From Candidatus Bathyarchaeota archaeon (GTDB lineage Archaea > Thermoproteota > Bathyarchaeia > TCS64 > PIYN01): a DNA stretch of 34,807 nt. Shown one piece after another: positions 17,992 through 31,357 of this stretch. The stretch lies in the NCBI GenBank assembly GCA_003601775.1, contig PIYN01000013.1, positions 1 through 34,807 on the forward strand, in the 5' to 3' direction. A program made the position numbers and the translations under genes. The number at the start of each line of letters is the position of its first letter. Within the stretch, counting starts at the first letter, position 1. Under the pieces are notes generated by a model. It saw only the letters and a list, made by a program, of their open reading frames with translations, did no database searches and was not told where the DNA came from.

Positions 17992-19051
17992 TCATCGCCT
18001 CAGCCCCACCCCCTGACACCTGATCAGGGTCGGTTCCCCGAGGGACCCCTTGACCACGAAGCGGGCTTCGGTGATCATCTCCGCGAGCCTGATCGCCGTG
18101 AGGGTGTGGAGGGTCAACTCACTCGTCCTGAAGAGGGACTCCCCGTCGGCGAGGGAGCACCAGAGGATGAGGTTATCCGCGGTGTGGAGGTCCACGGGGG
18201 CGCCCGTCCTGAGCTGCCTTACGAGGAGCTTGGCTGCCTCCCTCCCCACCTCCTCCGCGGGCTTCCCCTTCTCACCCAAGGCGTCTGAGCCGAGGTAGGA
18301 GGGCTCCTCCGATTCCACCCAGAGACAGATGAGGCTCCCCGGCGACAACGGCGCTCGTTCTCCCCTCAATACCTCCCTCCTGATCTCCACGTCGCGGTAA
18401 CCCGCCTCCCTCAACAGCCTCTCGGCGCTCCCCGCCTGCCTCTCAGCGACGTGAGCGGGGAGCCGCCCACAGAGGGAGACTCCCCTGATACGCTTAACCC
18501 TCACCTCTCCTTCGATCCTCAGAGGCTCCAGCCCCTCCACTGGGGTGATGCGGACGCTGACGATGCCTCCCCCCCCTGGGGTAGAACCCCTCCCTCCTGA
18601 TCGTGAGTTCCCCCTTGAAGCCCATCTCCTTCAGGGCCCTCCAGACGACCTCCCTGAGCATGAGCACCGGCATCGCCCATCTCACAGAGGTCCCCCCAAC
18701 GACCTCCAGCTCCGTGGTCTCCTCCGCATAGGCGGCTACAGGGGTGACGCACTGGAGGAGGAGACCGATGCTCCCGGCGGTCCCTATATCAAACCTGTGC
18801 CGACCTCCCCGGATCTCGCCCGGGTAGAAGACCACCTCCCCGGACCCTATCTCCAGACCCTCAACCCTCGCAGAGCAGAGCTCCGCGACCGCCCTAATGG
18901 CCGTGAGATGTTGGTTCCTCAGACCCGGGTTGGAACGCCTCGCCCGGATGTTATATACCCTCACGGGTTTCCCCATGACGGCGCTATAGGCTATGGCCAT
19001 CCTGAGGAGCTGCCCTCCCCCCTCAAGCATGCTCCCGTCGACTTCGTTCAT
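17992..19051 (-). CDS. rtcA: RNA 3'-terminal phosphate cyclase, reading frame broken at a G8 run
   Basis: MNEVDGSMLEGGGQLLRMA...RRSNPGLRNQHLTAIRA...FDIGTAGSIGLLLQ...GFYPRGG | frameshift | GIVSVRITPVEGLEPLRIEGEV...GAPVDLHTADNLILWCSLADG. Confidence 0.85.
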
Positions 19052-19315
19052 CTTCCCCTTAAGGATGACGTAGAGGTCCAATTTAAGGACTGAGACGATA
19101 AAGGGTCGGTATGAGGGCGTGAGGGAGGAAGCCCTTCTTAGGGCAGGCATACTGCGCCGAGTTGAATAATCAAAGATGAGAGCCACGGGGAGCAAGTACC
19201 TCATCTTCCTCCTCTTCGCCCTCCTCCACTTCCTCTCAGCCACCGACGTCCTCGCCCTGGGCGTAGAGACGAAGGGAAAGCCCCTGGAATAGTTCAAATA
19301 CCCCTTTGATCCTCT

Positions 19316-19725: not shown

Positions 19726-21978
19726 TTAGGTTCTTCTCCTTAGAAGGGCTATTGCAGCTACTGCTATGACCACGATCGCGATGATTGAAATCTGCCACAG
19801 AGGTATCCCTGGCTTTGACGGTGGGGCTTCCTCGTATTGGATGGTCAGGGCTGTATCGCCAGTCAGTTCTATCGTCCTCGTGGGAGTGGTGATGTCATCA
19901 TCCCACTGAACAAACTCATAGGACGTCCCCTCAACGGTGACCTCCTGAGGGACGGTAACCGTGTAGTTTCCGGCCTCTAAGGTCGCCGAGTAGGGAGTCG
20001 TGTACTCCTCCCCGTCGAGGGTGAAGGAGACGCCAGAGATGGGGGATGAGGTAATGCTCAGGGTATAAGAGGGAGGTGGCGGTGTCCCTACGATAACACT
20101 TCCCATGGCTTCACTACTCTCCTGGCCAGCGAAGTCTACAGCCCTGGCCTTCACCGTCACCGTCGTATTCGTGCTCGGCGCCTTTATCCAAACCCTGTAG
20201 GTGATCATTCCTGCCTCAGCGCTTTGGAGATCCAGGAGATCCGGCTCAGCCCAGTGATCTCCATCCGTGGAGTAGGTCACTACAACCTCGTCGACCCCCC
20301 ACCCCTGATCAGACGCCACTATATCGAAGCATATCCAAGAGCCGGGCTTCACAGCCTCGGGGACCCCCTGAAGACTCAACGACGGGGGTGCGGTATCGTT
20401 GATAGATTTGACTGTGAAGGATAATTCAGAGGACGCTGGGATCGTGATGTTCTCAAGGATCACGTAATATATTCCATCTCTCTCGACCACATCGTAAGCG
20501 GGTTTATAGGGAAGCCACTCATAGTCCTCCAAGGATACGTCGGCTGGCAACTTAAAGACGATCCTTGGGTCGTCGAACCGCTGGTTCAACTCATTCTTGA
20601 CTTTAAAGCTCACAGCGTGGTGTTGACCATCGTTGGCCGGGGCATAGTAATACTCGAGATAGCCGATTTTATAGGGCTCGATGGGCTGATAATTCAAGGT
20701 GGTTCCTGTATCTATCGGGATCGAGTTAGGGTAGTCGAACATCCCTGTCCCGTTGTAGTAGAGAGTGGACTCATCGAGGGTCCCGTTGGCGTAGATCTCG
20801 ATCAACTTAAAGCCCCGTAAGTCGTGGTCAGGTATGTCGAAGGCGAGGGCTGCGGGGCTGATGAAGTAGTGCCTTTTCCCGGTCGTGTTATCTTGGATTA
20901 TAACGTTCAGATCCGTGTGAATATGCTCAGATAGGATCAGCCTCACGTCATACTCGACGATCAGCCTGAAGAGTTCCTTCGCCTCGTCCGGATGGCCTGC
21001 CCATGTTGGATATACGATTTCCTCATCGAGGAAAGTGGTGAAATTCTCCCAGGAGGTTATATTGAGTAAGGCGCTTCCCAACGGCTTCAGGGCATCAGGG
21101 GCAAAGAGGGGATAGTGGAAGAAGACGATCTTCGTTTTATTGATGTTCTCACTCAGAACCTGCTCGGCCCAGTGAAGCCTATTCATCTTCACGTAGCCCA
21201 CCAAATCCGTGTCTAAGGATAGGAGCAGGAAGTCCCCTACCGTCACTGAGTAATTCACAGGACCCATGATCCGCTCGTAGATATCAGCATCCCCCTCCGC
21301 AGTATATTCATGGTTACCTGCAGTCACATACACGGGATCGACGAAGACCTCGAAGGCTTCCTCGAATTTGGTCCACTCGGTAGCCGATATAGGCTTATTA
21401 ACAAGGTCCCCGAGGAAGATGATGAGGTCTGGGTCTATGAGATTCGACTCCACCGCCATCTCATACCAGAATGGGGCGCCGCCTGCCCCCGGTTTTACAT
21501 CACCACAAGCTAAGATTCTGAGTCTCTGCGGCCATTTCGGGAGGACCCACAGACATCTCGGCTGAGTTAGGGTTTCGACTTCCCCTGATCCGTTAGGCTT
21601 GTATCTTAGCCGCAGGCTATAGGCACCTTCACGGAGCCCTGAAGGAAGGTCGAAGGTGAGATTCCAAGTACCTGTCTGGACATCGTAGTTGGAATCCAAT
21701 AGGGTCGCATTTACCGTCGTAAACTCATCGAATACTGTTGCGTTCTTCCATACAGTCTCAGACCCGAGGCTCACTTGAACTGTAAAATTCTCTCCGTCCA
21801 AGATGACCTCAGGGATACTTGGCAAGGGGTATCTGATCACATCAGCGTAGTATTTTATGCTCTGAGCCGAGACGAAAGGGACGTTAATTACAAGGGCCAT
21901 AGAAAGTGACGCTAGAACAATGAACGCCACCAATAGAGGGCCGGTCTGCCTCCTCTTGATCGATATATAACGACTCAT
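19726..21978 (-). CDS. Surface-anchored calcineurin-like metallophosphoesterase with C-terminal PEGA-like domain and TM
   Basis: Signal/TM at N-terminus; GDVKPG, IIFLGDLVNK, VTAGNHEYTAEG, LILSEHIHTD; C-terminal SITSSPISGVSFTLDGEEYTTPY and TM plus RRRT. Confidence 0.85.
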   Translation of the reverse strand: MSRYISIKRRQTGPLLVAFIVLASLSMALVINVPFVSAQSIKYYADVIRYPLPSIPEVILDGENFTVQVSLGSETVWKNATVFDEFTTVNATLLDSNYDVQTGTWNLTFDLPSGLREGAYSLRLRYKPNGSGEVETLTQPRCLWVLPKWPQRLRILACGDVKPGAGGAPFWYEMAVESNLIDPDLIIFLGDLVNKPISATEWTKFEEAFEVFVDPVYVTAGNHEYTAEGDADIYERIMGPVNYSVTVGDFLLLSLDTDLVGYVKMNRLHWAEQVLSENINKTKIVFFHYPLFAPDALKPLGSALLNITSWENFTTFLDEEIVYPTWAGHPDEAKELFRLIVEYDVRLILSEHIHTDLNVIIQDNTTGKRHYFISPAALAFDIPDHDLRGFKLIEIYANGTLDESTLYYNGTGMFDYPNSIPIDTGTTLNYQPIEPYKIGYLEYYYAPANDGQHHAVSFKVKNELNQRFDDPRIVFKLPADVSLEDYEWLPYKPAYDVVERDGIYYVILENITIPASSELSFTVKSINDTAPPSLSLQGVPEAVKPGSWICFDIVASDQGWGVDEVVVTYSTDGDHWAEPDLLDLQSAEAGMITYRVWIKAPSTNTTVTVKARAVDFAGQESSEAMGSVIVGTPPPPSYTLSITSSPISGVSFTLDGEEYTTPYSATLEAGNYTVTVPQEVTVEGTSYEFVQWDDDITTPTRTIELTGDTALTIQYEEAPPSKPGIPLWQISIIAIVVIAVAAIALLRRRT

Positions 21979-22088
21979 TTCCCATCAGTGTATGATTTCT
22001 CTGCTTTAAAATAATTATTTTCCTCATCCGGTGTGAGACCTGAGACGGCCTTCCTTAAGATCTCAGTCCTTGAAAAGGAAGGGGGGAC

Positions 22089-24323
22089 CTACGGTCTCCT
22101 TTTCGCTCTGAGAAGGACCACAATAACAATTGTGACGATAACCGCTGTAGTGGCTGAGATCTGCCAAGGGGTTATCCTTGGCTTAGGAGGTGGAACCTCT
22201 CGGTATTGGATTGTCAGGGCTATATCCTCCATTAGTTCTATCGTCCTCGTGGGAGTGGTGACGCCATCCTCCCACTGGACGAACTCGTAGGACGTCCCCT
22301 CGACGGTGAACTCGGTAGAGATGGTGAGGGAGTGGTTTCCCTCCTCTAAAGTAGCGAGGTAGGGTGTTGTATGTTCCTCCCCATCAAGGGTGAAGGGAAC
22401 GCCGGAGATGGGGGAGGAAGTAATGTTTAGAGTATGGGCTGGAGGGCCGATGGTGTAGTTAAACTGACGGGTTACTTTATGCCCCGCATAATCCCGTGTG
22501 GCGATGGTAACAGACAACGTTACACCGGCTGGTTGCCCTGGGATGGTAACCTCAACCTCGAGTGTTGGATACTCTATGATGTACTCATCTTTGTTTATAC
22601 GGAGGGTGGGTTCCAACGGCGGTAGTGGATAGATGTTAGTCACCCCGTCTGTGGTTAAGTACGCCCCTCCGACGTCCCTTATACCCCACCCCTTATCACT
22701 CACCTTAACTAACAACGTTAGGGGCGTCTCCGCTTTAATCTCTCCCTTAACCTTAATGTCGATCGAAGGAGGGTCTTCATCCTCGACCGCCGCTAAGGTG
22801 AGGTGGAGAAAGGTCTTAGGAGGCATATCGACGTGGGTGATAAAGCAGTACCCCTTCTCCGTCATCAGAGTCCTGTAATATACGAGCCTAGGTAGGGCGG
22901 TAGATGACTTCGGATCATCGAAAGTTACGTTATCATTGTCTTGAATTGAACTTACCAAGGGTGTGGTTGATGTTGTGATGTTAAATTCATAGTCTTTGAC
23001 ATCATATTCCTTGCTCACATAGAACTCTAACACCACATCCGTCAGGTTCTGCTCCTGATCATTTATGATCGTCGCCGATACGGCAGGCTCCGTACCATCA
23101 TTAAATGACCGATAGTAATAGGTGAGGTGCCCAACGGGTATAGCGTTTGGGGGATTAAACAAACGTCTCTCCATATACGCATCAAAATTGACATTACCCT
23201 CCGCATCGACCTCGATAAGCCTATAACCCGGATAATAGCCCTCAGGAAGGCTACCCCCACAGGCCACAGTGGTCACGAAGTAGTGTCTGTTATTATACAC
23301 GTAGACGATATCCCTGTGTATATGACCAGTCAGGATCAGCCTAACGTCATACTCCTCAACTAACCTAAGTAACTCGCGGGTTTCATTAAGGTGAGTTCTC
23401 CAGCTGTAATAGAGGTAGTTGTTAAGGATTTCTACGTTCTTCCAGCTCCCCGTGATATTCCCCCCAGGCCACCGGCTGAACAGTGGGTAGTGGAAACCCA
23501 GGATCTTAACCTTATCAGAATATTGCTGTAAGATACGTTCCGCCCATTTAAGCTGACTCAGTGCTACAAACCCTGCATCGGTAGAGTCCAGGGCTATGAA
23601 AAGAAAGTTTCCTATAACAATTGAGTAGTTTAGAAGCCCGCATTGGCTCTTATAGATGGATGCTCCGGCACCTTTGTAGTCGTGGTTCCCTGGCAAGAGA
23701 TAGGTCGGTACCCTTAACCGGCCAAGGACCCTGTGGAGATAGGTCCAAGCCGAGTAGATGGTCTCCGTATCTACTACATCGCCTGTATGAATGATTAGAT
23801 CTGGGTGAATGAGGTTTGTCTCATAGGCGAATGTGGCGAAGAGATCTGCCCCATAGGGGAGGTGTGTGTCGCTGATATGGTTGATCGTAAGCTCCTCGGG
23901 CCATCTTTCTAGGAGCCAAACACTCCTCGGCTGCGTGCAGTTGATCAGTTCCTCCCCGCTTTCATAGGCGATGTTTAGTGAATACAGCCCGGGATGAAGA
24001 TTTGAGGGGATCCTGAAGAAGATAGTCCACCCATCATCTTCGATATAGCTCTCATTTAGAAGGACGAGGAAAGTGGATCCATAGTTGGAGATCAGTTTTG
24101 CGGTCCAATTCCCTGCCTCGGGTCCCGCCCCTATTTCCACTTTAAGGGTGCCATTAACAAGAACCGGTTCCGGGACCGTTGAGAGGGGGTATTCAACTGG
24201 GTAGTCATGACGAATAATGGCCGGATATCCTTGAGATAGTGGAGGATGAAGGATAACGAAGGAGCAGAGGGTCCAGCTTACCAATAATCCTATAACGAGC
24301 AGCCTTTGCAGGCTTCTCTTCAT
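22089..24323 (-). CDS. Surface-anchored calcineurin-like metallophosphoesterase, paralogue of the adjacent gene
   Basis: HISDTHLPYGADL, IIHTGDVVDTE, LPGNHDYKG, LILTGHIHRD; same C-terminal PEGA-like domain and TM anchor. Confidence 0.88.
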   Translation of the reverse strand: MKRSLQRLLVIGLLVSWTLCSFVILHPPLSQGYPAIIRHDYPVEYPLSTVPEPVLVNGTLKVEIGAGPEAGNWTAKLISNYGSTFLVLLNESYIEDDGWTIFFRIPSNLHPGLYSLNIAYESGEELINCTQPRSVWLLERWPEELTINHISDTHLPYGADLFATFAYETNLIHPDLIIHTGDVVDTETIYSAWTYLHRVLGRLRVPTYLLPGNHDYKGAGASIYKSQCGLLNYSIVIGNFLFIALDSTDAGFVALSQLKWAERILQQYSDKVKILGFHYPLFSRWPGGNITGSWKNVEILNNYLYYSWRTHLNETRELLRLVEEYDVRLILTGHIHRDIVYVYNNRHYFVTTVACGGSLPEGYYPGYRLIEVDAEGNVNFDAYMERRLFNPPNAIPVGHLTYYYRSFNDGTEPAVSATIINDQEQNLTDVVLEFYVSKEYDVKDYEFNITTSTTPLVSSIQDNDNVTFDDPKSSTALPRLVYYRTLMTEKGYCFITHVDMPPKTFLHLTLAAVEDEDPPSIDIKVKGEIKAETPLTLLVKVSDKGWGIRDVGGAYLTTDGVTNIYPLPPLEPTLRINKDEYIIEYPTLEVEVTIPGQPAGVTLSVTIATRDYAGHKVTRQFNYTIGPPAHTLNITSSPISGVPFTLDGEEHTTPYLATLEEGNHSLTISTEFTVEGTSYEFVQWEDGVTTPTRTIELMEDIALTIQYREVPPPKPRITPWQISATTAVIVTIVIVVLLRAKRRP

Positions 24324-25393
24324 GGAGACTCCTCCAGCGGCAAGATTATTGTATCCTCCTGGGGGATATAAACTCTGATCCTCTCCCCCACTGAGACCTT
24401 CACATCGGGTGGGACGTCGATAAGGATCTTATTGCCGCCCACACTGACCCTGACTTCGGTATAGGGACCGACAAATGCCGTCCACTCCACCACCCCCTCG
24501 AACAGATTTGATGGCCCCTTGGGCTTTTCCAATGAGAAATTCTCGGGGCGTAGAACACAGGCGACTTTATCACCCCTCTTTACCTTTTTGTGATCGGAGG
24601 AGAACCTCCCCTGAAAAATCAGGTCTCCAACCCTGATCCTCGCGGGCTCCTCCTCTCTCTCCACTATTCCCTCAAGTAGGGTTCCACGTCCTATGAAGGT
24701 CGCTACGAAGAGATCTTTGGGTCTATTATAGACCTCCCCTGGATCTCCGACCTGGTGAATGACGCCCTTATTCTGAATAGCCACCCTATCTGAGATTACC
24801 ATCGCCTCCTCCTGGTCGTGGGTGACGTAGATCGTCGTTATCTTCAATCTTCTCTGTAGGTCCTTGATCTCCTCCCTCATCTCGATCCTCAACTTCGCGT
24901 CGAGATTACTCAGGGGCTCGTCCAAGAGGAGGACCTCTGGCTCTACGACTAGCACTCGCGCCAAGGCAACCCTCTGCTGCTGCCCTCCACTGAGCTGTGA
25001 AGGAAACCTCCTCTCCAGCCCCCTTAATTTCACCAGGTCTAAGACCCTCTGGACCCTCTCCTTTATCTCCTCCTTTGGAACCTTCCTGACCTTGAGACCA
25101 TAGGCTATGTTATCGAAGACGGACATATGGGGCCAGAGGGCGTAGTTCTGGAAGACCATGCCGGTGTTCCGCTTATAGGGGGGGAGGTCCGTTACGTCCC
25201 TGTCGCCGAAGTAGACCCTTCCCTCATCAGGTTGCTCGAGGCCTGCTATGATCCTCAGGGTGGTGGTCTTCCCGCACCCACTGGGACCCAGTAGGGTGAA
25301 GAATTCCCCGTCCTTGATCTCCAGGTTCACGTTTCCGGCGGCGACGACGTCCCCGAACCTCTTCGTTATTCCCTTCAGCACCACCTTAACCAT
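24320..25393 (-). CDS. ABC transporter ATPase (Fe3+/polyamine/thiamine-type importer)
   Basis: LGPSGCGKTTTLRIIAGLEQPDEG, LSGGQQQRVALARVLVVEPEVLLLDEPLSNLDAKLR, ATYVTHDQEEAM-type region (IYVTHDQEEAMVI), C-terminal TOBE-like. Confidence 0.95.
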   Translation of the reverse strand: MVKVVLKGITKRFGDVVAAGNVNLEIKDGEFFTLLGPSGCGKTTTLRIIAGLEQPDEGRVYFGDRDVTDLPPYKRNTGMVFQNYALWPHMSVFDNIAYGLKVRKVPKEEIKERVQRVLDLVKLRGLERRFPSQLSGGQQQRVALARVLVVEPEVLLLDEPLSNLDAKLRIEMREEIKDLQRRLKITTIYVTHDQEEAMVISDRVAIQNKGVIHQVGDPGEVYNRPKDLFVATFIGRGTLLEGIVEREEEPARIRVGDLIFQGRFSSDHKKVKRGDKVACVLRPENFSLEKPKGPSNLFEGVVEWTAFVGPYTEVRVSVGGNKILIDVPPDVKVSVGERIRVYIPQEDTIILPLEESP

Positions 25394-25396
25394 GAC

Positions 25397-27226
25397 CTAC
25401 ACCCCCAGGAAGGCTACCCGTTGCTTCAACACGTAATTTGAGATGACCATCGCGATGATCTGAACGGACATAAGGAGGACGCATAGAGCGGCTCCGATGC
25501 TGACCGCCCCAACGGCCGCAACGCCGTAGACGATCTGGCTTATGAAGAAGGTTATGGGTACTCTGTCCTCCCGGAGGGCTCCTAGGGTTACGCTCGTGCT
25601 GACCTCCGCCATGGAATACACGAAGGAGAGGATACTGCCCCCAATTATGTTGGGGGCTATTAAAGGGAGGACGATCCTGAAGAAGGTTGTGGGCCTCCCG
25701 GCGCCCAGGTTCAAGGACGCTTCCTCAAGGCTCACATCAATCTGTTGGAGACCAGCAAAGATCGCCCTGCTTGTGAAGGGAAGCCTCCGAACGGAATAAG
25801 CGAAGACGAGGAGAGGCGCGGGATCGATGAGGGGATCCAGAAGAGTCCTCCTGAAATAGGAGGAGAAGAAGAGGAAGTAGCCGATCGCCAGAGCGATCCC
25901 TGGAACGGCGACGGGAATGGTAGCCAAGATATCCAACAACGACCTTCCAGGGATGTCTCTCCTGGCCACGACGTACGCGATACTGGCCCCAACAAGAATC
26001 ATCAGTGTGACCGCGGCTCCTGAGTATAGTAGGCTGTTTACAATCGCCCGTGTCACATCGGGGTTGGTTGTCAGCGCCTTTAGATACTCCCAGGTAAATC
26101 TCGTCGGAAGGACCCCGCTGGTAGCCCAGTTCGTCGTCGCGAGTAAGATCGTCCCTATCTGAGGCATCGAGGCTGTAACTACCAAGAGGAGGAGGAAGGC
26201 GTAGATGACGATCTGAGCCCTCCAAGGGAGCTTCCTAACTCTAGGACTCCACCGTCCGCCCCGGGTCAGCATCGCATAAGACCTGAGGCTGACATAACGC
26301 TTTATCGCTATGAAACCAGCCACCGTTATGAAGAGCATAAGGACAGCCAAGGCCGCAGTTCTAGGCGAGATCCCCCCGGTCAAGGCCTCGGCGAAGGAGC
26401 TATAGATCTGATATGAGACGACCTTTCTTGCCAGGGGGTTCGCTCGAGCGCCTATGAAGCCTATCGGCGCCCCTAGATCTTCCATACTGAATATAAACAC
26501 TATTATGGCCCCTGCCGCCAGCCCCGGGAGAGAGAGGGGAAGGGTGATAGTTCTAAAGAGTCTGAAGCCCCTTGCCCCGAGATTCTCGGCTTGTTCCTCG
26601 AGACTGGGGTCTATGTTCATCAGGGAGGCGTAGACATTAAGGTATACAATTGGATAGAATGCCAAGGTCTGAGCCAAGGCGATGCCGACAAGACCGTCGA
26701 TATCGATCCTCCAGGGCAAGATATGGAGGACGTCGCAGAGTAGAAAGTTTATAAGACCCCTCCGAGGGCTGAAGAGTTTGCCTATTACATAGGCGTTCAC
26801 AAAGGGTGTGGCGAGGAGGGGGATCAGAAGCAGTACGCGGAAGAACTCCTTTCCTTTGAAGCTATAGCGGGCCATGATCACCGCCACAGCAACCCCTATG
26901 AGGGAGCATAGGATCATCACAGATAGGGCGACGATTAATGTATTCATGAGGATTCCGTAGTCAAGCCCCCAGAGGTACATTATCCCTCTATGCACCTTAA
27001 AGAGCATCCCTCCTCTAGGGGTGAGGGAGACAAATTCACGATTCCCGAGGATTTTAAGGAACCATGTAAGGGATGGAGTACCTTTATAGAGGAAGGCTTG
27101 GCCTACCATGAGGGCGAGGGGGGCTATAAGGAAGAGGAGAAGGACGACAGAGGCTATCACGGTCTGGGAGATCGTCATCAAGTCAAACTCCCTCCTCAGT
27201 CTCTTGAGGAATCCTCTGAGATCCAT
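25397..27226 (-). CDS. Fused two-domain ABC permease (FbpB-like)
   Basis: Two EAA-type loops: EEQAENLGARGFRLFRTITLPLSLPGLAAGAI and EEASLNLGAGRPTTFFRIVLPLIAPNIIGGSI; many TM helices. Confidence 0.93.
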   Translation of the reverse strand: MDLRGFLKRLRREFDLMTISQTVIASVVLLLFLIAPLALMVGQAFLYKGTPSLTWFLKILGNREFVSLTPRGGMLFKVHRGIMYLWGLDYGILMNTLIVALSVMILCSLIGVAVAVIMARYSFKGKEFFRVLLLIPLLATPFVNAYVIGKLFSPRRGLINFLLCDVLHILPWRIDIDGLVGIALAQTLAFYPIVYLNVYASLMNIDPSLEEQAENLGARGFRLFRTITLPLSLPGLAAGAIIVFIFSMEDLGAPIGFIGARANPLARKVVSYQIYSSFAEALTGGISPRTAALAVLMLFITVAGFIAIKRYVSLRSYAMLTRGGRWSPRVRKLPWRAQIVIYAFLLLLVVTASMPQIGTILLATTNWATSGVLPTRFTWEYLKALTTNPDVTRAIVNSLLYSGAAVTLMILVGASIAYVVARRDIPGRSLLDILATIPVAVPGIALAIGYFLFFSSYFRRTLLDPLIDPAPLLVFAYSVRRLPFTSRAIFAGLQQIDVSLEEASLNLGAGRPTTFFRIVLPLIAPNIIGGSILSFVYSMAEVSTSVTLGALREDRVPITFFISQIVYGVAAVGAVSIGAALCVLLMSVQIIAMVISNYVLKQRVAFLGV

Positions 27227-27268
27227 CGCTAATTAAACACCCCTCGCCCAGTTCATCATCCAAGGTTC

Positions 27269-28936
27269 CTAGCCTATTAAGCTCTCCAGCTCCGCCCGGA
27301 CACTATCGTAGCGGTTCTCTGCTGCCTTAATCCATTCAGAGACAAGTTCATCCCGGAAGGTCGGGTTGGTCCTGATCTTCTCGTTGACGCTTTGAGCGTA
27401 TTGTTGAGTGAAGGTAACTTGTTCCCCTGTCTCCGGATCCGTAAAGTTCAGCAAGAGTGGATTGCTCAATCTGTTAGCTAACTCCAAGAACTCTTCATGC
27501 GTTATTGATCCTTCAAACTTTGCATTTGTGAGCGCCATCCATGCATTAACGAGCTTTCCCTGAGCTCGCACGATTGTGGCATGGTAGAAGTACATCATGG
27601 AATACTCGTAGGAGAGGGCGAGGTCATCGCTGAACTCAATCACCATAGCTTCAAGAGTTCTGTTATATATCGCGTAGAGATCAGACCTCTCCTGGCCTTC
27701 AGGCGTGTTAAAGACCTTGGGGTTTATAGGTAACCTATTGATCTTTGGGTCAAGCCAGGGCTTCTGGCCCTCCGCGGAGATCACCCAAGCTATAAACGCC
27801 TGTGCCGCCTCGGGGTGTTTAGACGTGCTTAGCAGGGCGATGGGGTCTCCGTTGACTATCGTCCCGTCCTCCGGGAGGATGTACTCACACGCCTCTGGGT
27901 TCTCCAGCTGTGCCGTGTAACCGTAGAAGTCGATGGTAGTCCCCACCCCAATATCCCCTCGGATGACCGCATCTCTGACGAGCTCTGATTTATCGAAGAT
28001 CAGTGCGTTGGCCCCCTTTAACGTCAGGATCTTCCACCCCTCCTCCCACCCATATCTCTGGAGGATTATCTCGAACATCCTAGTATTCGAGGTGGACTTA
28101 GTGGCATCCGCTGTCCCAACACTCGGCATGGGAAGGGTGACTGCATAGGTCTCATTTGCGAGATCGGCCCAAGTCCTAGGCTCAGGCAACTCCTCTGCCT
28201 CCAGGTATTGTTTATTGATAGTGAAACCGAAGGAGGCGATGGCGCTCCCAACCCAATAGACCTTACTCTGGTTGTACCTCTTCATCGCCACCCCTGCGAT
28301 CTCATCCGGAATCTCTGCTAGGGCCTCTGTGACATTGTCACTGGTCAGTGGAGCGAGGAGTCCAGCATAATAGAGAGTGTCAAAGAGAACCGGACCGCCT
28401 CCCCATCCAACGTCGATGTCCCCTGAACTCTTTATAGTATCAACCCAGAGGGTAGGGCCTACAGGTAGCCATTTGATGTCTGTGATATTGTATTTTTTAG
28501 CATATTCACTCTTTAGAAAGAGGCTCTCGGCCTTGAAGGTAATGTCCATCCCATGTCTCGTTATGACCTTCAGAACAACCTCAGATGGAGCGGGTGGAGC
28601 TGGCGAGGCTCTCAAGGTGATGTTTACGGTGTACACCCCCTCCTCTGTCGCATCTATAGACTGAGTACTCATCTCATATCCCTCGGAACTCACGGAGATG
28701 GTGTAGGAACCGATAGCCACAACCAGAGAGTAGCTCCCATTTGACGCGGTAGTAACGCTGTTTCCATCGATTGTGACGGTCGCGCCTTCGATGGGAGTTC
28801 CTGTATCGGCATCTGTGACTACGCCCCTTATGGTTGCATTACCCTCAGGCTTAGGTCTGCTTAGAATGAAGTATCCCACCGCAGATATTACAACTATAAT
28901 GATCAAGACAGCCCCGATGAGGACCCTTCTATCCAA
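27269..28936 (-). CDS. ABC solute-binding protein with N-terminal TM anchor and carboxypeptidase-regulatory-like domain
   Basis: TTG start at 28934-28936 after GAGGGGATGAT; RRVLIGAVLIIIVVISAVGYFIL TM; IRGVVTDADTGTPIEGATVTIDGNSVTTASNGSYSL domain; then extracellular binding protein (GWGGGPVLFDTLYYAGLLAPL...). Confidence 0.88.
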   Translation of the reverse strand: MDRRVLIGAVLIIIVVISAVGYFILSRPKPEGNATIRGVVTDADTGTPIEGATVTIDGNSVTTASNGSYSLVVAIGSYTISVSSEGYEMSTQSIDATEEGVYTVNITLRASPAPPAPSEVVLKVITRHGMDITFKAESLFLKSEYAKKYNITDIKWLPVGPTLWVDTIKSSGDIDVGWGGGPVLFDTLYYAGLLAPLTSDNVTEALAEIPDEIAGVAMKRYNQSKVYWVGSAIASFGFTINKQYLEAEELPEPRTWADLANETYAVTLPMPSVGTADATKSTSNTRMFEIILQRYGWEEGWKILTLKGANALIFDKSELVRDAVIRGDIGVGTTIDFYGYTAQLENPEACEYILPEDGTIVNGDPIALLSTSKHPEAAQAFIAWVISAEGQKPWLDPKINRLPINPKVFNTPEGQERSDLYAIYNRTLEAMVIEFSDDLALSYEYSMMYFYHATIVRAQGKLVNAWMALTNAKFEGSITHEEFLELANRLSNPLLLNFTDPETGEQVTFTQQYAQSVNEKIRTNPTFRDELVSEWIKAAENRYDSVRAELESLIG

Positions 28937-29052
28937 CGTATCATCCCCTCGGACTAATTTTCTCACAAACAGAGTATAAAAGGTTACTTCTAACCCTGAG
29001 AAAGTATTATAAAGTAATAAAGAGAATTTGAGAGGGAAGGAGGGGAATAATA
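28937..29052. promoter_or_regulatory. Divergent promoter region between the ABC operon and the coiled-coil surface protein
   Basis: AT-rich; GTATAAAAGG near 28973 and ATTATAAAGTAATAAAG near 29007 look like archaeal TATA boxes. Confidence 0.5.
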
Positions 29053-30138
29053 TTGAAGAGAAGTCTACTTCCATACATACTGCTTGCGTCCTTGATGGTC
29101 TTGAGTTTCATGCCTTCCTTCGCTTCCACTGAGTCCAAGCCCATCGTGGTCGTACATTACAAGGGTGCACTCGAAGTCGGGGTGCAGCTAGAGGCGGCTA
29201 TGAACAACATAACTTCGGTCGATTGGGTTGTAGTCACAGGTAATCTAACCTCCACGAACCTCACCGAGGCCTCCATGCTGATCATGATCCAGGTCGACTC
29301 CTCGCTGAACTACACCGACGAAGAACTTAGCGCAGTGAAGGATTGGTTTGACACTGGTGGGAAGACGATATGGGTGGCAGGTGATAGTGACTACGGTACC
29401 GATAGATTTAGGATCCCAAGCGCAAACGCGGTATTGGAGGAGATAGGAAGCGTTCTCAGGTTAGAGGACTGTGAGGCAGTGGATCCATCCTCAAACGCTG
29501 GGGCAGACTATAGGGTAATAGGCCTCTCCGAGAACTGTGACGAGGAAGTTGACTTCCTCGTTGACGGCGTCACACGAGCACTCTTCCACGGTCCAGGCAT
29601 AATAGTGGGTTACGTAAATGGTAGCTATGTCAAGTTGGAGGAAGAGAAGCCTGAAAACGTATATGTCGTCATGACTACGAGCGAAAATGGGACGGTAGCG
29701 GAGTTCAACGCACCGAGTCCAGAGATCCATGAAGTGGGCGATAACGGCACCTTCGTCCTCATGGCTTTAGAGCTAGACGAGACGAAGAAGAACATAATCA
29801 TCGCAACTGCGGATGCACCCTTCGACCACTACACTGGCATGTACATGCCTGAACTAATAAAATACGAGAGGTATGCTGTGGAATACCCCCAGCAGGGGGC
29901 GAGGCTCTTCGAGAATATCATCGATTACATGATTGCTAACAAGATCGCCTTTTTACAGGGGCAGGTGACGGATCTAGAGGGACAGGTGACAACTCTTCAA
30001 GACCAGGTGACTGACCTACAGGGGCAGGTGGATACTTTAAAGAAGTCAATAGGGACTTGGCAAGGCGTATCAGCAGGGACCTTTGTAATAGGTTTGATCA
30101 TAGGCGTCGTCGTAGTATACTTTATGAAAAGAAGCTAA
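29053..30138 (+). CDS. Secreted C-terminally anchored protein (GATase/DUF4350-like ectodomain), coiled coil and TM
   Basis: Signal peptide, DEELSAVKDWFDTGGKTIWVAGDSDYG, heptad repeats, terminal TM VSAGTFVIGLIIGVVVVYFMKRS. Confidence 0.75.
   Translation: MKRSLLPYILLASLMVLSFMPSFASTESKPIVVVHYKGALEVGVQLEAAMNNITSVDWVVVTGNLTSTNLTEASMLIMIQVDSSLNYTDEELSAVKDWFDTGGKTIWVAGDSDYGTDRFRIPSANAVLEEIGSVLRLEDCEAVDPSSNAGADYRVIGLSENCDEEVDFLVDGVTRALFHGPGIIVGYVNGSYVKLEEEKPENVYVVMTTSENGTVAEFNAPSPEIHEVGDNGTFVLMALELDETKKNIIIATADAPFDHYTGMYMPELIKYERYAVEYPQQGARLFENIIDYMIANKIAFLQGQVTDLEGQVTTLQDQVTDLQGQVDTLKKSIGTWQGVSAGTFVIGLIIGVVVVYFMKRS
29956..30039 (+). repeat. Four consecutive 21-bp heptad-encoding units (QGQVTDL/EGQVTTL/QDQVTDL/QGQVDTL)
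   Basis: CAGGGGCAGGTGACGGATCTA and three diverged copies in direct tandem. Confidence 0.85.
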
Positions 30139-30232: not shown

Positions 30233-31357
30233 ATGGAGGGATTAAATAGAGTAGTGATCTGCACGGGACAACCAGGGAGCGGGAGGGATGAGTACCTAAG
30301 GGAACTGAAGAAAAGGCAGGAATTCTTCTACTACCACCTCTTTGAGTACATCGTGGGGGAAGCGGGGAAGGAGGGATACATCCTTAACAAGCTAAACGTT
30401 CTGGATTTCTACGACAGTAAGCCAGAGAAGTTGGAGGAGTTTCGGGCAAGGGCCTTGAAGAGGATCATGGGAGAGATTAAGGAGCGAGGCGGCGTCCATG
30501 TCATCAGCACTCCTTATCACTTCGAATGGAAGGGGAAGTCTTACAGAGGATTGAAGGAGGAGGAGGTGAAAGTCTTGAACCCTGACCTCTTCCTCGTCGT
30601 CATGGATGATTTAGCCAGAGTGAGGGAGAGGCTGAGGGAGGATCCGCAGTGGAGAGAGCATCGTTTCACTCTCGTCGAGCTCGCCCAGTGGAGGAGGGAG
30701 GAGATCATGGGCGTCTACAAACTCTCTCATATCTTCACACCCTACAAGGAGTTCTATCTCGTTGCGAGAGAGCATGGCATGGACTTCCTGCGGGACCTCA
30801 TCTTCAACAGCCATAAGAAGAAAGTCTATCTAAGCCACCCCATCACGGGGGAGGGGGGTGAGTTCTTCAAGGGGGTAAGGCGTTTCGCCGAGACCCTCCA
30901 GCCCTACTACATTGTCTTCGACCCCTACATGATCAAGGATTGGGATATGGTCGAGACTTGGAGGAGGGTGCGGAACGAGGCGATGAGGGAGGGGAGGGAG
31001 GTCCCCGAGAAGATCAGGGTTACCATCGAATACGCCGACGGGTCGAGGGAGTACGAGCTGGATTCCTGGGATATAGAGGCGGCGATCAAGAACATCAGGG
31101 CCCAGATCATCGACATTGACTACAAGATCATCGAGAGCTGCTACTGCGTCGTCGTCTACCATCCTCGGGAGCGGATCTCCGCGGGGGTCGTCTGTGAGAT
31201 GGTCCAGGCGAAGGGGATGGCGAAGTTCGTCTACGCCTTCTACCCCTTCGAGCCGAGCCCCTTCTTCGAGTGGTACTCAACTAAGATCTTCCAAGACGAA
31301 GAAAGCCTCATCGAGTTCCTAAAGGGCATCTCAGAAAGGGAAGGCGTCTCACCATAA
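30233..31357 (+). CDS. Fusion of a degenerate P-loop kinase-like domain with a nucleoside 2-deoxyribosyltransferase-like domain
   Basis: N-terminal VVICTGQPGSGRDEYL; C-terminal KKVYLSHPITGEGG...DYKIIESCYCVVVYHPRERISAGVVCEMVQAKGM (NDT-like fold order with candidate Glu). Confidence 0.65.
   Translation: MEGLNRVVICTGQPGSGRDEYLRELKKRQEFFYYHLFEYIVGEAGKEGYILNKLNVLDFYDSKPEKLEEFRARALKRIMGEIKERGGVHVISTPYHFEWKGKSYRGLKEEEVKVLNPDLFLVVMDDLARVRERLREDPQWREHRFTLVELAQWRREEIMGVYKLSHIFTPYKEFYLVAREHGMDFLRDLIFNSHKKKVYLSHPITGEGGEFFKGVRRFAETLQPYYIVFDPYMIKDWDMVETWRRVRNEAMREGREVPEKIRVTIEYADGSREYELDSWDIEAAIKNIRAQIIDIDYKIIESCYCVVVYHPRERISAGVVCEMVQAKGMAKFVYAFYPFEPSPFFEWYSTKIFQDEESLIEFLKGISEREGVSP

Follow-up and report, generated by a model that had tools for sequence, protein, structure and literature searches.

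The window analysed here, a stretch of 34,807 nucleotides from a Candidatus Bathyarchaeota archaeon, holds on its minus strand the genes of an ABC importer together with those of two phosphoesterases. These encode a binding protein (SBP, 27269..28936) with an N-terminal transmembrane (TM) anchor, a CarboxypepD_reg domain and an SBP domain carrying an AfuA/P5PA-like phosphate cup; an ABC permease of PhnU2/FbpB-like layout (25397..27226), which is fused, since two BPD_transp_1 stretches lie in one protein; a PotA/PhnT2-like ABC ATPase with a TOBE_2 domain (24320..25393); and two surface-anchored metallophosphoesterases, MPE2 (22089..24323), with the full canonical metal ligands, and the K-type MPE1 (19726..21978), which ends in a PEGA-like domain and a TM segment. 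The original prediction had placed all of these reading frames correctly, and Pfam and NCBIfam models (SBP_bac_6/8, CarboxypepD_reg, BPD_transp_1 twice, ABC_tran with TOBE_2, and two Metallophos proteins) confirmed the identities it gave them. SBP, permease and ATPase are adjacent and are homologous to the subunits of ABC importers of the iron/organophosphate SBP class. The plus strand carries SURF (29053..30138), with a signal peptide, a GIFT-like domain (IFT52/Ost48 fold), a coiled coil and a C-terminal TM segment, followed by AK (30233..31357), with an adenylate-kinase-like and a 2'-deoxyribosyltransferase-like domain. Elsewhere in the window, an open reading frame at 18494-19297 resembles, by eye, RNA 3'-phosphate cyclase; its frame seems to change near 18500, and it may be broken or misassembled.

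The ATPase stop and the MPE2 start overlap as ATGA (24320..24323, minus strand), as had been claimed, and a -4 overlap of the same type was found again in six other loci (L062, L063, L064, L152, L153 and L167), so the overlap is more than chance. The 3-bp gap between permease and ATPase is likewise real. The minus-strand run is as claimed, with MPE2 overlapping the ATPase; MPE1 lies 110 bp behind MPE2 (6 bp in L152), and its place on a shared transcript is for that reason less certain in the window's genome. The SBP and the divergent surface protein do share a promoter region, of 116 bp (28937..29052), with the start of the SBP moved: in the window this is probably TTG 28936 and not ATG 29074. 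The SBP homologues begin MDRK or MDRR, and the TTG is preceded by GAGGGG, gives a 555-aa protein equal in length to the SBP of L152, and leaves the 116 bp up to SURF's own TTG at 29053, whereas a start at ATG 29074 would run into SURF. Scans with sigma-70 and terminator models, both inapplicable to archaea, gave results at chance level.

We used 398 genomes drawn from the phylum Thermoproteota, with cut-offs of E<=1e-40 for the MPE and E<=1e-50 for the SBP, to follow the cluster beyond the window. The MPE occurred in 73/398 genomes and the SBP in 85/398, with both present in 71 (Fisher p 1.5e-61 over the 398 genomes, by a statistic that ignores relatedness). Where a distance was computed, the nearest MPE and SBP lay within 8 kb of one another in 58/69 genomes and were unlinked in 11/69; a further 14 genomes had an SBP and no MPE detected, and one (G014) had the importer on one contig and the MPE on another. 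Across 47 clustered loci, most of them chosen for holding an MPE, the families recurred as MPE 44, ATPase 40, permease 38, SBP 36 and SURF 33, and beyond these five core families came AK in 9/47 and the next family in 8/47. Within the window's order, clustering of all flanking ORFs found SURF, SBP, permease, ATPase, MPE and AK widely common between genera and most of the remaining flanking genes confined to one genus. Relatives within the window's order keep the same block, with SURF divergent from SBP-PERM-ATP-MPE and AK at one end, and the order varies between lineages, some having SBP-PERM-ATP-MPE with divergent SURF, some MPE-SURF-SBP-PERM-ATP, and some other orders. That the genes stay adjacent despite such reshuffling strongly indicates that they are functionally linked. 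Carriers include the cultured hyperthermophiles Staphylothermus marinus (G205) and Thermofilum pendens (G162). A scan of contigs with MPE2 as query returned weak bacterial MPEs only, and the true relatives came from the wider genome search. The original prediction had made its case depend on the neighbourhood being conserved in relatives, and conserved it is, as a phylum-wide unit with a shuffled order; we found no close homologues already characterised in a different role and, in the literature searched, no description of this gene set.

One locus, L152, from another family and order of the class (G428), repeats the window's gene set and gene order without change, AK-SURF|SBP-PERM-ATP-MPE-MPE. 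Its permease and SBP are 80% and 72% identical to those of the window, compared with 73% and 59% for L061, from the window's own order. This closer likeness suggests that the whole cluster may have moved horizontally. Two further arrangements were observed. A paralogous SBP-ATP-PERM unit without an MPE (L078, L050, L051, L052 and L053) stands beside AK in four genomes and at a contig end in the fifth, and in one family that includes T. pendens (L173, L176, L178 and L189) two more conserved genes, with products of roughly 213 and 614 aa, adjoin the MPE.

MPE2 retains every metal ligand of a calcineurin-like enzyme (D152, H154, D182, N213, H278, H334 and H336, in the motifs D-x-H, GD, GNH, H and H-x-H). 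The closest solved relatives of the MPEs are Rv0805 and 2dxl/2zo9, which we take to be the glycerophosphodiesterase GpdQ, and the MPE profile has purple acid phosphatases among its matches too; MPE2 is a candidate phosphodiesterase of a kind that sequence does not separate from a phosphomonoesterase. It shares the calcineurin-like fold family with GpdQ and the Rv0805 phosphodiesterase, but differs from them in being a membrane-anchored ectoprotein of about 744 aa with added N- and C-terminal domains. MPE1 departs from the canonical pattern: the motif I His is replaced by Lys and GHIH by EHIH, giving the K-type motifs D-x-K, GNHE and EHxH, so that its metal ligands are incomplete, and its match to the Pfam Metallophos model is nonetheless over cut-off. 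Of 59 MPEs, 47 retain His in motif I and 57-59 retain the remaining metal ligands, and the 11 sequences with Lys in motif I form one clade (support 0.979). The activity of MPE1, belonging as it does to a clade that lacks a metal-ligand histidine, is uncertain, and the two phosphoesterases of the original prediction may be one canonical enzyme and one diverged. We rejected the idea that MPE1 is a decaying copy, as the D-x-K clade is well supported and conserved in several families. K-type copies are the importer-adjacent MPE in four loci (L160, L164, L165 and L167) and can also stand alone; a PDB search with MPE1 alone gave no match. The predicted membrane anchoring of both enzymes agrees with a hydrophobic segment at the N-terminus and another at the C-terminus of each. 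Their PEGA-like C-terminal domains (TLxITSSPISGVxFTLDGEE) are nearly identical, and a related copy lies inside the binding protein of L061 (L061:9598-11541), a distribution that points to domain shuffling within the cluster.

Of the two plus-strand proteins, SURF gave a model (pLDDT 78) that matches the N-terminal domain of IFT52 and the yeast OST chain 7oci_G, and it ends in a coiled coil and a TM segment. A TM anchor of NNLYMGLGGG type ends both the paralogous SBPs of loci without SURF and the SURF of L066-L068, those SBPs thereby bearing the coiled-coil/TM end that elsewhere belongs to SURF, and this common anchor suggests that SURF may serve the binding protein as scaffold or anchor. The AK model (pLDDT 89) has an archaeal adenylate-kinase fold and a C-terminal 2'-deoxyribosyltransferase-like domain, that half having no Pfam name. 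Its P-loop reads GxPGxGRD in 14/14 aligned sequences and so lacks the Lys and Ser/Thr of adenylate kinases. Linkage of AK with the importer is confined to the window's class, and in family f2 AK is near-universal whether the importer is present or not. We rejected AK as a phylum-wide core part given its low recurrence among the clustered loci and its occurrence without the importer.

Another way to view the function of the cluster is through the pocket of its binding protein. Profile searches placed 8x1a, P5PA (pyridoxal phosphate) and AfuA (sugar phosphates) as the top solved relatives of the SBP, and the phosphate contacts of AfuA and P5PA are published (PMC4546632, PMC8427247). The AfuA residues S148, T150 and S184 map to S327, S329 and S363 of the SBP (numbered from ATG 29074), which are kept in 49/50, 50/50 and 50/50 homologues, so the Ser/Thr phosphate cup common to AfuA and P5PA is present. 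The sugar-ring residues that mark AfuA proper, a hexose-phosphate binder, are not: the position of E229 is an invariant N408 and the H205/D206 region reads IDFYGY. The SBP has its own near-invariant set, H174, D382, Y384, N408, D410 and R447. The cluster resembles the AfuABC (hexose/heptose-phosphate) and P5PAB (pyridoxal-phosphate) systems of Actinobacillus in SBP subgroup, cup Ser/Thr and ABC layout, while its SBP differs from AfuA in the replaced H205/D206/E229 positions and the invariant or near-invariant D382, Y384, N408 and D410, and from both systems in its membrane anchor and its linkage with SURF and a surface MPE. From these residues we infer that the SBP recognises one conserved, probably phosphorylated ligand throughout the phylum, and that this is not a hexose phosphate. 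Pyridoxal phosphate was rejected as a general ligand because PdxS is present in 23/54 carriers, which is no consistent auxotrophy; in the window's genome, where PdxS had no match, it may yet be the ligand. Inorganic phosphate was rejected as well, since it already has an importer: PstC-like matches occur in 47/54 carriers, 31 of them over cut-off, and the window's genome has Pst-type permease genes.

Around the observed gene content, the linkage across the phylum under rearrangement, the conserved catalytic and pocket residues, and a surface topology read from the sequences, we propose a cell-surface module with which these archaea would scavenge organic phosphorus. The canonical MPE (24323-22089), held by its C-terminal membrane anchor, would hydrolyse an extracellular phosphodiester; the membrane-anchored SBP, near the GIFT-fold, coiled-coil SURF as its presumed scaffold, would capture the released phosphorylated organic compound by its Ser/Ser/Ser cup; and the fused permease and ATPase would import that compound intact. 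The module would then be an ecto-phosphodiesterase feeding an organophosphate importer. In E. coli, the extracytoplasmic phosphodiesterase GlpQ feeds the organophosphate ABC importer UgpBAEC; the working principle would be alike, whereas the enzyme fold and SBP family differ, and we claim no membership. Candidate ligands are of nucleotide type, suggested by the linkage of AK in the window's class, or derived from a glycerophosphodiester. The strong linkage, the metal ligands of MPE2 and the phosphate cup all fit the original prediction that the phosphoesterases feed the importer, which is thereby partly supported, with uptake of the MPE product as the inferential step. Against the reading count the four loci whose importer-adjacent MPE is of K-type, the 14 genomes with an SBP and no MPE detected, and the separate contigs of G014; carriers also include organisms both with and without PurM, so no single auxotrophy explains the cluster. 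We hold this reading tentatively, judging it nearly as apt to be right as wrong. A more elaborate version, in which the ecto-phosphodiesterase, the Lys-type MPE and a GIFT-fold stalk form a phylum-wide surface complex feeding an AfuA-like importer with a phosphorylated ligand (nucleotide- or lipid-head-group-like), and so supply a missing nutrient route of hyperthermophile heterotrophs such as Thermofilum, seems to us doubtful.

The same linkage data would also fit a surface MPE that strips phosphate for an importer of the dephosphorylated product, be it a nucleoside, a sugar or an alcohol, a possibility that the original prediction covers as one of its branches. The matches of purple acid phosphatases to the MPE profile and the linkage of the nucleotide-type protein AK in the window's class agree with this, as does the rarity of PurM (E<=1e-40) in carriers, by a hand count that is confounded by phylogeny (roughly 21/71 carriers against about 218/327 non-carriers). 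The S. marinus paper reports that three crenarchaea are purine auxotrophs and that T. pendens has no recognised nucleoside transporter (PMC2678158); two of the three are among the carriers found here. However, carriers of genus g64 retain PurM. BMP-type nucleoside binding proteins, which neither the window's genome nor T. pendens has, are present in 40/54 carriers, and the SBP pocket retains the phosphate cup of organophosphate binders. We consider uptake of a dephosphorylated product unlikely.

It is less likely still that the two halves of the cluster are separate, with the MPE modifying the cell's own envelope (a glycan, S-layer or lipid phosphodiester) and merely co-regulated with the importer. 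The architecture is envelope-like, with Ig-like and PEGA-like domains, a coiled coil and TM segments, the SURF fold matches IFT52 and an OST chain, and both the unlinked MPEs of 11 genomes and the solitary K-type copies speak for it. Against this, the MPE stays beside the importer in the 58 linked genomes despite their rearranged orders, and the stop/start overlaps recur.

An importer of the FbpABC kind for ferric iron or ferric phosphate, with an accessory phosphoesterase to free iron from organic phosphate complexes, would draw on the SBP's membership of the superfamily of HitA, YfuA and SfuA. FbpA binds iron through a His, a Glu and two adjacent Tyr, and in iron binders of the FbpA type a similar Ser-Gly-Ala/Thr turn binds a synergistic phosphate, so the cup alone is no proof of an organophosphate. 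By our own placement, H174 and Y384 stand at the positions of FbpA His9 and Tyr195, so the His and one Tyr are kept, but the Glu position is an invariant glycine (G226) and the second Tyr is Gly/Ala (G/A385); the top solved relatives also include two proven organophosphate binders. On these residues iron is the less likely ligand, with a metal-phosphate complex compatible with the cup, and we regard a ferric importer as improbable. Least credible of all, and in our view close to dismissible, is an importer of the PhnS2-T2-U2 kind, the putative 2-aminoethylphosphonate transporter (TIGR03261/03265/03262), which is alike in its fused two-domain permease, PotA-like ATPase and related SBP and whose NCBIfam models rank first for the ATPase (PhnT2) and among the best for permease and SBP (PhnU2 and PhnS2), but whose curated cut-offs all the cluster's subunits fall under (ATPase 393/458, permease 137/593 and SBP 49/393 bits), whose phosphonate catabolism genes are here replaced by an MPE, and whose companion phosphonatase was over cut-off in 0/54 carriers, as in none of the control genomes either.

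Units that join a surface enzyme to an importer reveal the diet of uncultivated archaea, and this one is conserved from metagenome-assembled genomes to cultured hyperthermophiles; because cultured carriers exist, the question of the substrate is directly testable. The Lys-type MPE clade poses a separate question of enzymology. Should the ligand prove to be a phosphorylated metabolite, new names would be due for those Thermoproteota importers that automatic annotation would call iron or phosphonate systems, and organisms with reduced biosynthesis would have one of their nutrient routes explained.
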